Shown: positions 503 through 8,200 of the stretch, one piece after another
Position numbering within the stretch: the first letter of the stretch is position 1
Layout of the letters: the number at the start of each line of letters is the position of its first letter
IMG/VR virus record: IMGVR_UViG_3300010297_000069
Location: 1-26,416 of that record
Source of the DNA: a virus
Strand: one strand, 5' to 3'
DNA length: 26,416 nt
Notes under the pieces: model-generated
The model's input: the letters and a program-made list of their open reading frames with translations, nothing else
What the model was told of the DNA's origin: nothing
The model's database searches: none
Position numbers and translations under genes: made by a program

Positions 503-1261
503 ATGGCTAAAGGATTTACAGTAAAAGCAAAAGCGCCGACTGTTAGTAGTTCGGCACCCGAATGGGATTATGATAAAGCAAGAGAGATCATTAAAGGCAA
601 GAGTGTAGTATTCTGTCTACCTGGTCGTGGAGTTTCTTACACGTACCTGAAGAATTTTGTACAACTTTGTTTTGATCTAGTACAAGCAGGTGCCAGTATT
701 CAGATCTCACAAGACTACAGTTCCATGGTGAACTTTGCCCGTTGCAAGTGTCTCGGTGCTAATGTTCTTCGTGGTCCAGATCAAATTCCCTGGGACGGTA
801 AACTAAAGTACGATTATCAATTGTGGATTGATAGTGATATTGTTTTTAATACAGAGAAGTTCTGGCAACTTATTCTAATGGATAAGGACATTGCATCTGG
901 TTGGTATTGTACCGAAGATGGTCAGACGACTTCTGTTGCACACTGGATGGACGAAGAAGACTTCCGTGGTAATGGTGGAGTGATGAATCATGAAACACTC
1001 GATAGTATTGCCAAGCGTAAGAAACCCTTCACTGTGGACTATGCAGGTTTTGGGTGGTTGCTCATCAAGTACGGAGTATTCGAACACGATGAGATGAAGT
1101 ATCCCTGGTTTGCACCGAAGATGCAGGTATTTGAATCTGGCGAAGTGCAAGATATGTGTGGCGAAGACGTTTCATTCTGTCTTGATGCCAAGGAAGCAGG
1201 ATTTGAGATTTGGTGTGATCCTCGCATTCGCGTTGGTCACGAGAAAACTCGCGTGATCTGA
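503..1261 (+). CDS. Glycosyltransferase-like protein (GT-A type)
   Basis: The 252-residue product resembles GT-A-fold glycosyltransferases, which use a nucleotide sugar and a metal ion. The first strand is KSVVFCLPGRG (33-43), followed by a helix and the segment NFARCKCLGANVLRG (77-91). A hydrophobic strand then leads into the Asp-x-Asp motif in QLWIDSDIVF (106-115, D110 and D112), the usual metal/nucleotide-sugar site. Near the C-terminus GEDVSFCLDAKEAGFEIW (220-237) and VGHE (244-247) match the acidic catalytic-region and final His patterns of GT-A enzymes. No membrane segment or signal peptide is visible, so it should act in the host cytoplasm, on phage DNA, virion protein or host surface precursors; the acceptor cannot be read from sequence. 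ATG 503 lacks a strong Shine-Dalgarno. The next gene begins four bases after its stop, suggesting co-transcription. Confidence 0.72.
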   Translation: MAKGFTVKAKAPTVSSSAPEWDYDKAREIIKGKSVVFCLPGRGVSYTYLKNFVQLCFDLVQAGASIQISQDYSSMVNFARCKCLGANVLRGPDQIPWDGKLKYDYQLWIDSDIVFNTEKFWQLILMDKDIASGWYCTEDGQTTSVAHWMDEEDFRGNGGVMNHETLDSIAKRKKPFTVDYAGFGWLLIKYGVFEHDEMKYPWFAPKMQVFESGEVQDMCGEDVSFCLDAKEAGFEIWCDPRIRVGHEKTRVI

Positions 1262-1265
1262 TATC

Positions 1266-1454
1266 ATGGCAGATAGGTACACAATTCTTAGGAACGGTAA
1301 GAAAATCTTCACTGCTCTTTCAGAAACTGAGTACTTTGACATCATGGACGATTTCGCCGTAGAGTACTATAAAACTGGCAGACCGACTCCTGCCGAACTC
1401 GAAACTATTATTATTGGAGAATCTAAATGGCAAAAGCAAAAACCGGACTCGTAA
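1266..1454 (+). CDS. Conserved small cyanophage protein of unknown function
   Basis: The 62-residue protein starts four bases after the glycosyltransferase-like gene. It opens with MADRYTILRNGKKIFTALSE and continues with an acidic helix (EYFDIMDDFAVEYY), then a Gly-Arg-Pro-Thr-Pro turn and a short hydrophobic segment (ELETIIIGE). The beginning looks like a two-stranded beta hairpin. I recall similar proteins paired with the following basic mini-protein in T4-like cyanophages, but cannot verify this here. Its last 28 bases overlap the start of that gene in another frame, and its tail (KWQKQKPDS) is dictated by the overlap. No Shine-Dalgarno is visible before ATG 1266, so translation may be coupled to the gene upstream. 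Function unknown. Confidence 0.75.
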   Translation: MADRYTILRNGKKIFTALSETEYFDIMDDFAVEYYKTGRPTPAELETIIIGESKWQKQKPDS

Positions 1455-1573
1455 AGGGTGGATACGTCCCCGGAAAACCCAAAAAGTCTCGTCAAGGAAT
1501 GGGAAATGGAACGAAGTATGCCGCGTCGTCTCGTAACAAAGCACGTAAACCTTATCGAGGACAAGGACGCTGA
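1427..1573 (+). CDS. 48-residue highly basic mini-protein
   Basis: ATG 1427 is preceded by GGAGA (1416-1420) at six-base spacing, a good ribosome binding site. The 48 residues begin MAKAKTGLVKGGYVPGKPKK and end KARKPYRGQGR. There are nine Lys and five Arg and not one Asp or Glu, with many Gly, Ser and Asn, so it is probably disordered when free and well suited to bind nucleic acid or an acidic protein. It overlaps the preceding gene by 28 bases. Its TGA (1571-1573) abuts the ATG of the SET-domain gene, and its last codons supply that gene's AAGGA ribosome binding site. This packing indicates one translationally coupled unit. Related mini-proteins are, as I recall, common in cyanomyoviruses. 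Function unknown: ribosome, DNA or RNA binding are all possible. Confidence 0.82.
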   Translation: MAKAKTGLVKGGYVPGKPKKSRQGMGNGTKYAASSRNKARKPYRGQGR

Positions 1574-1945
1574 ATGTATTCCTTAAATCTCTACACCTAC
1601 CTTGCTCCCAGTAAAGTCTGTGGCGGGGTGGGTGTTTTTTCTTTGATTGATATACCAGCAGATACTCTTATCTTCAAACCAAATCAAAGGCAATATATTT
1701 TATGGAAAGAGGTTTCTTCCGAAATAAAAGAATGTCTTGAGAAATTAACCTATTGTGATGAGAAAGGTTTTTGGATTGATTGTGATTTGGATCGTATCGG
1801 ACCACAATATTATATAAATCATTCAGATTCACCCAATGTTTCTTACAATAAAGATACTGGTGAATTGTATTCGATACGTCTTATCAAAAAAGATGAAGAA
1901 CTTACGGACTACTATTTTCCAGGAGAAAGGGATTGGCATACCTAA
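1574..1945 (+). CDS. SET-domain protein (putative protein-lysine methyltransferase)
   Basis: The 123-residue product matches a minimal SET domain. The first motif is GGVGVFSLIDIPADTLIF (17-34), equivalent to the family's G-x-G-V/L-F...I-x-x-G-x-x-I strand that helps bind S-adenosylmethionine. The hallmark N-H-S-x-x-P-N block is intact as NHSDSPN (82-88). The final block is IKKDEELTDYY (104-114), where E108/E109 and Y113 or Y114 occupy the places of the conserved Glu-Glu-Leu and catalytic Tyr. The insert between blocks (40-78) is short, and the protein ends soon after the catalytic Tyr, so there is no Cys-rich post-SET motif. Such enzymes transfer methyl groups to protein lysines; the target here is unknown and could be a host or virion protein. 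ATG 1574 directly follows the previous stop, with AAGGA at 1563-1567. Its 3' end overlaps the next gene by 13 bases. Confidence 0.78.
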   Translation: MYSLNLYTYLAPSKVCGGVGVFSLIDIPADTLIFKPNQRQYILWKEVSSEIKECLEKLTYCDEKGFWIDCDLDRIGPQYYINHSDSPNVSYNKDTGELYSIRLIKKDEELTDYYFPGERDWHT

Positions 1946-2568
1946 ATCATAGTTTACCCGATTGGTCCTGTTATATTCGTAATGAGTTCCTTTATAACCA
2001 TAAAAAGGGACATGGAGAAGTAACCAAGTGTGATGTACACTCTGTTGCCAGTATAGAGAAGCGTGTGCCACTGTTTGAGGCATTCCTGGAGAATGGCGTG
2101 AACTGGACTCGTCGCCCTTTACATGCCTTCTGTTGGCGTCCTGATGCGGAAATAGAACCTCTAGAGGACATTATGTACTGGGACTGCTTCTCCCCGTACA
2201 TTGATGTCCAAAGAAGGCATCGATTGGCAAATTTAGATGCTCAATTGATTCGTCCAGATGGAAAGAAGGTACTTGGAACTTATATGTTCACTCTGGATTG
2301 GTCTTGGGAGAACAAAGGAATGCCCGATTTAAACTTTTCGGAGACTCCCGAACACAAATGTGCTCATTTATTCAAGGTTGAGACTGGAAATTACTATGCA
2401 TATCCAAATAATCGGATCATTTGGTATGATAATGCATGGGTTTTTAATAGAATTGAGAAAAATCCTGGGTATGAGATTGATCTGACCGTTTATTCTGTGG
2501 AAAATAAGAGAAAGATAGAGACAACCGATCATTACATGTACGAAATTAAAGATATAGGGCAAAAATAA
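1933..2568 (+). CDS. Conserved cyanophage protein of unknown function, TTG start
   Basis: The 211-residue protein starts at TTG 1933, chosen because AGGAG (1921-1925) sits seven bases upstream and no ATG occurs in the first 20 codons of this frame. It overlaps the SET gene by 13 bases. The sequence is rich in Trp, Tyr and His: a beginning LNHSLPDWSCYIRNEFLYN, then the segment RPLHAFCWRPDAEIEPLEDI, IMYWDCFSPYIDVQ, and a C-terminal half with alternating strands (NYYAYPNNRIIWYDNAW). It has no membrane segment or signal peptide. The spread of aromatic residues and predicted strands resembles a compact beta-rich enzyme or sugar-binding fold, but I see no catalytic motif I can name. I recall relatives in cyanomyoviruses near tail genes. 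Function unknown. Confidence 0.72.
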   Translation: MAYLNHSLPDWSCYIRNEFLYNHKKGHGEVTKCDVHSVASIEKRVPLFEAFLENGVNWTRRPLHAFCWRPDAEIEPLEDIMYWDCFSPYIDVQRRHRLANLDAQLIRPDGKKVLGTYMFTLDWSWENKGMPDLNFSETPEHKCAHLFKVETGNYYAYPNNRIIWYDNAWVFNRIEKNPGYEIDLTVYSVENKRKIETTDHYMYEIKDIGQK

Positions 2569-2951: not shown

Positions 2952-3353
2952 ATGGCAGTACAAAGGATATCCAGAGCTTTCAAGGATATTAGTTTATCTT
3001 TTAGTATGCATCCTGTAACTAAGGATATCCTTGTACTTAAAAATGCTGATGCGATCAAGCGATCAATTCGCAATATTGTTCAAACCATTCCAAGTGAAAG
3101 GTTTTTTAGACCTGTTTTGGGAACAAATATTAGATCTCAACTTTTTGATTTTGTTGACTTCGGTACTGCTTCTATAATTGAGCAGCAAGTTCTAGTCGCA
3201 ATCGAAAACAACGAACCAAGAGTCGAAAATGTTGGTGTTACTGTTTTACCAAAAGCAGATACCAATGAATTTGAGATAAATGTTCGTTTTAAAGTTGTTG
3301 GACTAGAGATACCAACACAACAGTTTACATATCTCCTAGAGGCAACAAGATAA
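2952..3353 (+). CDS. gp25: Baseplate wedge subunit gp25
   Basis: The 133 residues match the T4 gp25/GPW-gp25 family in length (T4 gp25 is 132 aa) and pattern. Evidence includes an early DISLSFSMHPVTKDIL segment, the central strand-helix NADAIKRSIRNIVQTIPSERFFRPVLGTNI (31-60), typical of the family's core, a middle FDFVDFGTASIIEQQV (65-80), and a C-terminal beta segment EFEINVRFKVVGLEIPTQQF. In T4, gp25 sits at the inner baseplate, joining the wedge (gp6, gp7, gp53) to the sheath start, and contains a sheath-like handshake core. The gp6 ATG follows after a single base, so the two are made from one message starting at the late promoter at 2921. Length and order (gp25 then gp6) are the canonical T4-like arrangement. 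Confidence 0.95.
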   Translation: MAVQRISRAFKDISLSFSMHPVTKDILVLKNADAIKRSIRNIVQTIPSERFFRPVLGTNIRSQLFDFVDFGTASIIEQQVLVAIENNEPRVENVGVTVLPKADTNEFEINVRFKVVGLEIPTQQFTYLLEATR

Positions 3354-3354
3354 A

Positions 3355-5217
3355 ATGCCTTTTACAAAGTTTACCAATCTAGATTTTGATCAGATAAAGA
3401 CATCCATCAAGGATTATCTCCGTGCAAATAGTGATTTCACGGACTTTGATTTTGATGGTTCGAACTTCTCTGTTCTAATCGATACGCTTGCATATAACAC
3501 ATATATCACTGCGTTTAACTCTAATATGGTTGTAAACGAATCTTTTATAGATTCAGCAACTCTTAGAGAAAACGTGGTTTCTCTTGCCAGAAACGTAGGA
3601 TACGTTCCAAGATCAAAAACAGCAGCAAAAGCAACAGTTTCTTTTAATATATCAACAGTACAAACAGAAGGACAGGCAATTCTAAAGGCAGGTCTCGTTT
3701 GTGTTGGTCCAGTAGATAATTCGGATTATACATTTTCAATTCCAGAAGACGTTACGGTTAATATTTCCAACAATATTGCTTCATTTGCCAATCTTGAAGT
3801 ACTGCAAGGTATATACCTAACAAAGGAATTTACCGTAGATTCTTCTCTCAATCAAAGATTTATTCTAAACAACCCAAACATTGATACGAGCACTATTAAA
3901 GTTAAAGTAGGAACTCGTGAATATAGAATGGTTGATAATATTATCACCGTTAATAGTGACTCTGAGATTTATCTTTTACAGGAAATATCCGATGAAAGAT
4001 ATGAACTACTTTTTGGTGATGGCATCATAGGCAAAAAATTAAGCAATGGTGACGTCATAAAAATCAGTTATATTGCAACTGATGGAGAAACTGGCAACGG
4101 ACCATCCGTATTTTCTTATGCGGGAACAACCACTGATAGTAATGGTGTATTAATCACACCTCAGGCAGGGGTTACGATCACAACCGTGTCAAATGCCTCT
4201 GGAGGAGGCGACATCGAACCAATTGAATCTATTAAGTACTATGCACCTAGAGTGTATTCCTCGCAGTATCGTGCCGTTACAACGAGGGATTACGAGGCAT
4301 TAGTACAACAAGTGTATCCTGCCACAGAATCTGTCTCCGTTGTTGGTGGTGAAGAGTTAAATCCTCCACAGTATGGAAAAGTATTAATCAGCATTAAACC
4401 AAAAAATGGTGTTTCTATTTCAGATTTCCATAAAAATCAAATTATAAATGATCTCAAACAATACACTGTATCTGGTATATCACAAGAAATTGTTGACCTA
4501 AAACTTCTATATGTTGAGATTGATAGTGATGTTTTCTATGATTCATCTAGAACTAATTCAGCAAGTGATCTGAAGACTAGAATTTCTAGTTCTTTGGAAA
4601 CTTATTCAAAATCTGTAGATCTGAATAAGTTTGGTGGTAGATTTAAATACAGCAAGGTATTGCAAGTAATTGATGGTGTTGACAATGCAATTACTTCAAA
4701 TATTACTAGAGTTAAAATGAGGAGAAATCTAAATTGCATTCTAAACACTTTTGCACAATATGAACTTTGTTTTGGTAATAAGTTCTATAAGAGAATTGAT
4801 GGATATAATATTAAGAGCACAGGATTTAAAATTGCTGATGATCCAGATACTGTTTACTTAGTAGATGTTCCAGATGCAAATAGTGATATTGGAATTCTTT
4901 CTATTGTTAAAGAAACTTTAGATCCAGATACTTTTGAGATTGTTAAGAAATCCATAGGTACGGTTGATTACACTAACGGTGAAGTAATTATTAATACTAT
5001 TAACATAGTATCCACAGAACTAGACAATGGTGTAATTGAGATTCAGGCATACCCAGATTCGAACGATGTTATTGGTCTCAAAGATTTATATTTGGTTTTT
5101 GACACCAGCAAAAGCACTATAAATATGGTTAAAGACACCATAGCTTCTGGAGAGCAAATCTCTGGAGTTAATTACCCAGTCAGGTCAAGCTATTCTAACG
5201 GAAGACTAACAAGATAA
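3355..5217 (+). CDS. gp6: Baseplate wedge subunit gp6
   Basis: The 620-residue protein is close in length to T4 gp6 (660 aa). Its N-terminal part has the typical block FDFDGSNFSVLIDTLAYNTY (29-48), followed by NESFIDSATLRENVVSLARN and VGYVPRSKTAAKATVSF. A baseplate-J-like middle contains LFGDGIIGKKLSNGDVIKI (around 219-237) and the signature IEPIESIKYYAPRVYSSQYR (287-306) with AVTTRDYEALV right after. The C-terminal half (about 350-620) is beta rich. In T4, gp6 forms the ring of dimers that holds all wedges together and opens during contraction. It starts one base after the gp25 stop with only a weak AGAGG far upstream, so translation is probably coupled. A late-promoter octamer for the following gene is embedded near its 3' end (5118-5125). 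Confidence 0.95.
   Translation: MPFTKFTNLDFDQIKTSIKDYLRANSDFTDFDFDGSNFSVLIDTLAYNTYITAFNSNMVVNESFIDSATLRENVVSLARNVGYVPRSKTAAKATVSFNISTVQTEGQAILKAGLVCVGPVDNSDYTFSIPEDVTVNISNNIASFANLEVLQGIYLTKEFTVDSSLNQRFILNNPNIDTSTIKVKVGTREYRMVDNIITVNSDSEIYLLQEISDERYELLFGDGIIGKKLSNGDVIKISYIATDGETGNGPSVFSYAGTTTDSNGVLITPQAGVTITTVSNASGGGDIEPIESIKYYAPRVYSSQYRAVTTRDYEALVQQVYPATESVSVVGGEELNPPQYGKVLISIKPKNGVSISDFHKNQIINDLKQYTVSGISQEIVDLKLLYVEIDSDVFYDSSRTNSASDLKTRISSSLETYSKSVDLNKFGGRFKYSKVLQVIDGVDNAITSNITRVKMRRNLNCILNTFAQYELCFGNKFYKRIDGYNIKSTGFKIADDPDTVYLVDVPDANSDIGILSIVKETLDPDTFEIVKKSIGTVDYTNGEVIINTINIVSTELDNGVIEIQAYPDSNDVIGLKDLYLVFDTSKSTINMVKDTIASGEQISGVNYPVRSSYSNGRLTR
5118..5125 (+). promoter_or_regulatory. T4-type late promoter inside gp6, ahead of giant gp7
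   Basis: An exact TATAAATA lies within the last 100 bases of gp6, 104 bases before the ATG of the giant gene. Its place just ahead of the longest gene suggests an extra start for that message. A chance match in AT-rich coding sequence is possible, since the octamer here also encodes part of gp6. Confidence 0.45.
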
Positions 5218-5229
5218 AAGAGAGGAGAT

Positions 5230-8200
5230 ATGATTACAACCGGGTTTGAGTCAAGGGTAAAGATCCAACAGATCGTTGATAACCAATTACCTGAATTTAT
5301 TTTATCAGAAAGCCCTAAGGCTGTCGATTTTCTAAAACAATATTACATTTCTCAGGAATTTCAGGGTGCCCCTGTTGATATTGCTGAGAATCTAGATCAA
5401 TATTTAAATCTTAATAATCTAACACCTGAAGTAATATCTGGATTTACATCTACTACTAGTGCAGTATCATCTACAGATACCACGGTAAATGTAGAATCAA
5501 CAAAAGGATTCCCACAAGAATACGGTCTTTTTAAGATTGATGATGAAATTTTTACATACACTGGCATAACAACAAATAGTTTTACTGGATGTGTACGTGG
5601 ATTTAGTGGAATCACAACATATAGAAGTAATATTAATGCTGAAGAATTAATATTCTCCACATCTTCGGCAGCAACTCACAGTGGTGTTTCCAGGGTCACA
5701 AATCTCAGTGTTCAATTTTTAAAAGAATTTTATCGTAAGATAAAAGTTTTACTTGCACCTGGTTTTGAAGATGTTGATTTTGTAAGTGAACTTGATGTAA
5801 ATAAGTTTATAAAGCAGGTAAAAAACTTTTATCAAAGTAAAGGTACTGATGAGTCTTTTAGAATTTTATTTAATGTCTTATACGGATCAACTCCAAAAAT
5901 TTTAAATCTAGAAGAGTTCTTATTAAAACCATCATCTGCAGAATATAGAAGAAGACAGACATTAATAACTGAAGTATTAGAGGGTGATCCTAATAATATG
6001 GCAGGTCAGATGCTTAAGAGCTCTGATGAAACTGCTGCTGGTCCGATCTCAGAAGTTGAGATCATTACAAGAAATCGAAAAACTTTTTATAAAATTCAGT
6101 TATTTAGTGGTTATAATGAGCAGAGTTTAATTGAAGGTGAATTTAAAATCACACCTAGCACAAATGCTACAGATGAAGTTTCTATTGGATCATCAATTAT
6201 TACAGTAGATTCCACTATTGGATTTAGTACTGCTGGGCAATTATATATTGGTAAAAACGTTGTTTCTTATTCTGATAAGAATATCAATCAATTCTTTGGT
6301 GTAAGCACCCCAGCTGGTATTGGAGTAAGTGTTGGTATTAGCACTGCAGATAAAATTTATGCAGAAAGCACCGTTTTTGGATACGAAAATGGAGATCTCA
6401 ATAAAAAAGTAAATCTAAGAGTTACTGGTATTCTTTCCGATTTAGAAAAAACAGATGATTATACTCTTCTTTTAGAAGGTGATAAAATTCCAGTCAGAAA
6501 TCTTGGGGAAGAAATTAAAAATGAAAATCTAGACAAAAAACAATTTACATTCAACACTTGGATTTACAATGTAAGGACACGATATGAAATTGATAGTTTT
6601 ACTAATAATGAATTGACTTTATTTGAGAATCCAGATAAGTCAAGTTTGCGTGTTGATGATAGAGTTGATATTTTAAATAGAGGTAGTGAACAAGCAGTTC
6701 TACTTAATGTAAGAGTAAATGCAATTGCGGGAAAATTAGTAACACTTGACACTAACATTCCAGCAAACATCGCTTCTGATACTAGACTTAGCATCAGAAG
6801 AAGATATGAGTATGCATCTTCATCACCATTATCTCTGAGTGGTGATAAAATTCTCGCTAATGTGCAAAATACATATAATGATAATGATGAATTTTTATAT
6901 GTCGCATCAAATTCTCTCCCATCATATCAGTTAACAAAAAATATATCTACGATTGATATTAATATCACATCATCTTCCAATTTAAATTCTATTTTTGGTG
7001 GACTTAGTTCAGTAACTGCAAAATATACCACATTATCTTTTGCAAACAATGTTCCATTTATAACTGGTGATGCAGTAATTTATCATACAACTGGAACTGC
7101 AATTAGTGGTCTTGAATCTGGTAGAAAATATTATGTCCAATTAGTTGGAACATCAAAAAACACAATTAGATTATTTAATGCAAGATCATTTATTAATACA
7201 GATAAGTATGTTGAGTTTTCTCAGTATTCAACACCATCAACACATTCATTTACTTTAGAACAGCATTATCAAAAATCTCTTTCGTTTAAAAAATCACTTT
7301 CTAAATTTCCACTGAATCCAAATATTCAGTCGGGAACCTCTAAAAAAACAATAGCAGGACAAGTTGGAACACTTATTAATGGTGTTGAGATTTTAAGTTA
7401 TAAATCAAATGATTATATTTACTATGGACCACTAGAAGGAATAAAAGTATTCAATAGTGGAACTGGATATGATGTAATTAATCCACCAACAGTTAAGGTT
7501 AATCCACCAACAGTCGGAATAGGAACTACTGCATTAGTTCAGGCAGTGGTTAGAGGATCTTTCTCCGAAGTTAAGGTTGATCCCCAAAACTTTAATATTA
7601 CTAGAGTTCTTTCTGTAACCGCTAAAGGTGGTAATGGATCCGGTGCAGAATTAGAAGCAGTTGTAACCAAGCAGTTTAGAGAATTAGATTTTAATGCATC
7701 TCAGGTTGGAGTTGCTGCAACTGGTGGTGTTGACATTGCCGATGATACAATTACTTTTACCCTGGAACATAATTTAACAAGTGGACAGGCAATTGTTTAT
7801 AATCCAAGTGGGAATTCGCCACTTGGTATTGGATCATTTAATGGATCTAACGCCGATAGTGGAAGAACATTAATTAATGGTTCTGTTTATTATCCTCAAG
7901 TAGTAAATACAAAAACTATCTACTTGTATGAATCTTTAACTGATTACAATGCCGGTATTAATACAGTAGGATTTACTACAATTGGAACTGGTGGTCTTCA
8001 TAAGTTTAGACTATTTGAAGAAAAAAATGTCATATCAGAAATTAAAGTTGTTAAACCAGGTTCTGGATATGAAAATAGAAAACTAAAAGTTAAACCAATT
8101 GGAATTTCTACAATCCATAGTACAGTTACATTTAATAAGCATGGTTTTAATGATGGAGATTTAGTCAAGTACAGTTTTGATGGTACTGCAATTAGTGGGT

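Follow-up and report, generated by a model that had tools for sequence, protein, structure and literature searches.

Phage protein-lysine methylation has been little studied, and a search among open-licence papers returned none on this modification in cyanophages. A SET protein in another bacteriophage, ORF62 of Stenotrophomonas phage vB_SmaM_Ps15, is already in print (PMC9025141). The chlorovirus PBCV-1 protein vSET tri-methylates histone H3 Lys27 in its algal host (PMC7019647), and PMC12542666 describes BurB as a stand-alone bacterial SET enzyme that uses SAM and acts on free methionine. The stretch of DNA analysed here, hereafter the window, is a virus fragment of 26,416 bases and makes up the whole of its IMG/VR record; in it, a minimal SET domain is encoded between positions 1574 and 1945.

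The gene is not unique, and one or more public phage records already carry an annotation for it. Its relatives, as found by tblastn, occur in 7 of the 50,697 GenBank phage records, all of them from Synechococcus phages (53-71% identity), including Sf-CH1b (PV340850), S-B05, S-B43, RN05-S, RB11-B and SynMITS9220M01, with Synechococcus WH8102, MW02 and MIT S9220 as the hosts in culture. The public names given to these relatives range from hypothetical protein to methyltransferase (RN05-S and RB11-B), and the Sf-CH1b record designates the gene as a SET domain-containing protein-lysine N-methyltransferase. For SynMITS9220M01 (L005), only the last part of the gene is annotated (6172-6366 of the locus), as a hypothetical protein, and the reading frame reaches back to about position 6001. 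At the level of IMG/VR, a single-sequence scan yielded 25 SET loci and a profile scan at least 155 stretches with relatives, the best 80 of which were kept for analysis. The 120 phage loci possessing the gene, some of which repeat the same contig, provided 67 distinct phage proteins. As for bacteria, one relative was found in genome_contigs (32% identity, Candidatus Yonathbacteria), and the plasmid matches reached only about 30% identity, with E-values of 0.05-0.1.

Its gp25 and gp6 genes, together with these relatives, indicate that the source virus is probably a T4-like cyanomyovirus infecting marine cyanobacteria. On the plus strand, the locus starts with a gene for a 252-aa protein (503..1261; phrog_1574, 1.5e-122), with weak similarity to glycosyltransferases (PHROG 6.6e-5), as the upstream flank, followed by a gene for a 48-aa lysine-rich protein, with nine lysines (1427..1573; phrog_516, E 7.8e-19), and, directly after it, by the SET gene, which runs from ATG to TAA and codes for 123 aa (1574..1945). 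Next comes a 211-aa gene, whose TTG start lies 13 nt within the SET gene (1933..2568; phrog_3704), and the baseplate wedge genes gp25 (2952..3353; PF04965, 2.7e-12) and gp6 (3355..5217; PF21379, 1.7e-18, and phrog_219) are located just 3' of the SET slot.

Some features were also observed at the beginning of the window. An 85-aa protein (198-455) has weak AbrB/MazE-like similarity (PF04014, under the cut-off; phrog_661). A mostly non-coding stretch located 5' of the first gene (152-210) is kept in 11 cyanophage records, in which no annotated feature lies beneath the listed matches, and an Rfam search of the window, this stretch included, gave no match. Positions 1-190 form a GC-rich contig start with a terminator-like hairpin and are probably not an assembly artefact, since the sister contigs L007 and L009 share them.

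Residues 18-114 of the SET protein match PF00856, at profile positions 1-104 of 105, with a score of 44.1 bits (E 3.1e-11; the cut-off is 22.4), which is too strong for a chance resemblance, and this is the single hit for the reading frame in the search of the window's own record. Three motif blocks, namely G18-V-G20-V-F22, N82-H83-S84-D-S-P87-N88 and E108-E109-L110-T-D-Y113-Y114, are all present within the 123 residues, so that the complete minimal SET domain proposed for this phage gene in the sequence-only reading is borne out. Each of the 51 sequences in the family alignment A3 gives the same Pfam match, and no match was found for the protein in NCBIfam, nor in PHROGs at 0.01, so that no strong PHROGs family corresponds to it.

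Conservation of the catalytic tyrosine, which the same reading had named as a test, turned out to be complete: Y114 is kept in 68 out of 68 distinct proteins (the 67 phage proteins and the bacterial relative, L112), together with G18, G20, F22, N82, H83 and E109, and S84 is kept in all but one. In the HMMER alignment, Y114 falls on the second tyrosine of the 'YDY' of MLL3/MLL4, with no gap after the EEL block. The residue preceding it is a tyrosine or an arginine in most members, and not the usual aspartate; in the main clade, an aspartate is found two residues before the catalytic tyrosine. The dN/dS values of the gene against 31 relatives were mostly comprised between 0.1 and 0.3, with a median of 0.20 over the 41 unsaturated pairs, and the gene is under purifying selection. 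The gene is conserved, and its product is very probably an active methyltransferase.

The AlphaFold2 (AF2) monomer model, built from the 51-member alignment A3, has a mean pLDDT of 84.5 and a pTM of 0.66, with two weak spots: residues 71-80, whose mean pLDDT is 65, and the C-terminus, the region in which a SET knot and its lysine channel would be closed. The two motifs that such a C-terminal knot would thread, NHS and ELxxxY, are both present. The matches listed by Foldseek belong to SET methyltransferases, with Plasmodium PFL0690c as the best (3.5e-6) and vSET (3kma) at an E-value of 7.2e-6. These matches superpose with a large rmsd (about 9-10 A), which points to misplaced segments. With VIA-align, vSET is the top match (Z 11.4; 69 aligned residues, with an rmsd of 1.5 and 26% identity), the last aligned pair being model residue 114 with vSET residue 105; SMYD3, MLL1 and SET7/9 are tied with it within 1, and all the matches listed are SET proteins. 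The model thus displays the SET beta fold, and the protein resembles vSET in both size and fold.

Positions 91 and 112 showed a complementary pattern, with exactly one aromatic residue between them in all 67 phage proteins. This residue is at position 91 in 57 proteins (tyrosine or tryptophan, with aspartate, asparagine or threonine at 112) and at position 112 in the other ten (tyrosine or phenylalanine, with isoleucine, valine or leucine at 91). These positions probably correspond to the F/Y switch of SET7/9 (Y305) and DIM-5 (F281), the two sites from one or the other of which characterised SET enzymes provide the aromatic side chain that limits the number of methyl groups added. The complementarity fits a channel aromatic supplied from one side; it is suggestive rather than strong, because the tree requires only about one change and not several. 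If this mapping of the sites holds, a tyrosine at 91 or 112 would favour mono-methylation.

In 120 out of 120 SET loci, the end of the SET gene, stop codon included, runs into the beginning of the 211-aa gene, a downstream neighbour that the earlier reading had not mentioned, by 13 nt in 109 of them, 4 nt in ten and 10 nt in one. This overlap is constant although the 211-aa proteins form types that are only about 30% alike. The converse association is rare: among loci found via the 211-aa gene, SET is present in 9 of 390; where the flank was sufficient, it was seen in 6 of the 167 situated at the gp25 locus and in none of the 143 situated elsewhere. Between the 48-aa gene and gp25, SET was seen in 1 of 31 loci with the 211-aa gene and in 0 of 46 without it, numbers that are too few to tell an association with the 211-aa gene from one with the gp25 locus. 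In 58 of 80 loci, SET is absent and the 48-aa, 211-aa and gp25 genes are present, as a rule less than 60 nt apart, DSL-LC02 being a GenBank example of adjoining 48-aa and 211-aa genes. Since these two genes adjoin in relatives devoid of SET, the latter is an optional gene inserted at one spot.

The 211-aa protein itself was found in 112 phage records and in several genome contexts, pelagiphages included. These records label it PurM, phosphoribosylaminoimidazole synthetase or ferredoxin, and since no Pfam or NCBIfam model supports either the PurM or the ferredoxin name, both are doubtful and probably misapplied. Its AF2 model has a pLDDT of 37. The median dN/dS of its gene is 0.04 over 15 pairs, with synonymous sites near saturation; both the SET and the 211-aa genes are old in these phages and both are kept. 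When forms with and without SET were compared, absence of SET being read from fetched stretches, some of which are incomplete, one column of the 211-aa protein (E75) passed the filter, and K111 and K192 were commoner in the SET-associated forms (kinship uncorrected); for gp25, the same comparison gave no SET-specific residue. At loci L111 and L122, the SET proteins share only 50-52% identity with that of the window and their 211-aa neighbours 90-97%, a sign that SET may have been replaced by exchange there or may be evolving much faster.

A general slot for modification enzymes beside the 211-aa gene was looked for in a survey of 410 loci, from which near-identical ones had been removed, and was not retained, the evidence being weak. 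Genes for 2OG-Fe(II) oxygenases adjoin the 211-aa gene 21 times, 15 on its upstream side and 6 on its downstream side, vs. 31 elsewhere in the same loci, and this adjacency says little because such oxygenases are common in these phages. The other neighbours (DNA polymerase A, ribonucleotide reductase, MazG) are unrelated, and a match to ATE_C, the C-terminal part of arginyl-tRNA-protein transferase, was seen once in the survey, in locus L128. As a separate observation, three genes of Sf-CH1b, Syn19 and P-HM1 that carry the name DNA endonuclease V (denV) resemble 2OG-Fe(II) oxygenases instead (PF13640), those at L002:6986-7531 and L193:1871-2416 being over the cut-off and the one at L197:1899-2513 just under it.

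Taken together, the SET gene most probably codes for a stand-alone minimal SET (class V) SAM-dependent methyltransferase of T4-like cyanomyoviruses, most likely a protein-lysine methyltransferase, co-produced with the 211-aa protein. The GxG strand and N82-H83 would form the site for SAM, and the amine to be methylated would come in through a narrow channel beside Y114 and there receive the methyl group. The methylated residue would most likely be a lysine of some protein that the phage produces or encounters in the course of infection, a protein substrate being favoured because the nearest relatives, both in sequence and in fold, are protein-lysine methyltransferases. Since the SET and 211-aa proteins are translated in overlap, their production is probably coupled, and they may also work jointly. 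For the same reason, the 211-aa protein can be put forward as the first candidate partner or substrate of the enzyme, bearing in mind that gene overlap alone can reflect the compactness of phage genomes. The existence of relatives in cultured Synechococcus phages makes a hunt for the substrate directly feasible.

A more specific reading, which we hold to be possible but doubtful, is that the SET and 211-aa genes form a two-part protein-modification module, in which SET would methylate the 211-aa protein, or the latter would present a host or baseplate target to it; the 211-aa protein would then be the fixed part of a modification system whose enzyme can be exchanged. It draws on the far stronger constraint on the 211-aa gene and on the ability of the slot to hold another protein-modifying enzyme: at L128:1160-1645, between the 48-aa and 211-aa genes, the ATE_C match (5.4e-7, over the cut-off) is found in place of SET. 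Should the 211-aa protein be the substrate, this would give a first function to a protein doubtfully named in its 112 phage records.

It is rather unlikely that the substrate of the enzyme is a small molecule, for instance methionine converted to S-methylmethionine, which would feed the sulfonium osmolyte chemistry of marine hosts. In favour of this, such an activity would parallel that on free methionine described for BurB (PMC12542666), the phage protein lacks any accessory domain for substrate binding, and the A3 profile touches BurB at an E-value of 0.88; this value is not significant, the best sequence and fold matches, which are protein-lysine methyltransferases, are far ahead of it, and the neighbouring genes examined included none recognised as belonging to a sulfonium pathway. 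A catalytically dead SET fold, kept as a binding or structural protein beside the baseplate genes, seems very unlikely: dead SET proteins such as MLL5 and SET-24 are reported to exist, and the residue before the phage tyrosine departs from the usual aspartate, but the tyrosine, the SAM-site Asn-His and the GxG are kept in every one of the 68 proteins whereas many other positions vary.

The least probable proposal is the one put forward in the sequence-only reading, namely that the 48-aa protein encoded directly 5' would be a dedicated substrate; its richness in lysine and its position (in most SET loci showing both genes, it ends within a few nt of SET) are outweighed by its being widespread without SET and by lysine columns that are alike with or without it. 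The 48-aa protein is present in 340 of the 50,697 phage records vs. 7 for SET, and of the 80 loci obtained by a scan from this protein, 77 were informative: 76 had no SET, of which 46 also lacked the 211-aa gene and 30 possessed it, and one had both SET and the 211-aa gene. The frequencies of its lysine columns are similar in 48 versions associated with SET and 198 versions without it; in this comparison, no SET-specific residue and no sharply different lysine column was found. Moreover, 526-565 nt separate the two genes in five loci, and no 48-aa match was found before SET in L077 and L091. The 48-aa protein could still be methylated.

The methyltransferase proposed here can finally be set against the known systems. 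The best sequence matches among solved structures are the SET domains of MLL3/MLL4 (KMT2C/D; profile E 6.6e-5), with which the catalytic tyrosine aligns; in contrast to these, the phage protein has neither the post-SET cysteine cluster (its last cysteine is C70) nor partner subunits, and their 'YDY' becomes 'DYY' or 'YRY' in the phage family. vSET is likewise viral, stand-alone and about the same size; to our knowledge, the cyanobacterial host has no histone H3. BurB is likewise a stand-alone SET enzyme, from bacteria, and its substrate is free methionine (PMC12542666). ORF62 of vB_SmaM_Ps15 (PMC9025141) is also a phage SET-domain protein, from a different phage and host. The closest counterparts are the genes of Sf-CH1b, S-B05, S-B43, RN05-S, RB11-B and SynMITS9220M01, which belong to the same family, occupy the same slot and, where read, show the same overlap with the 211-aa gene; they differ from the gene of the window, itself part of a metagenomic fragment, by sequence divergence only.
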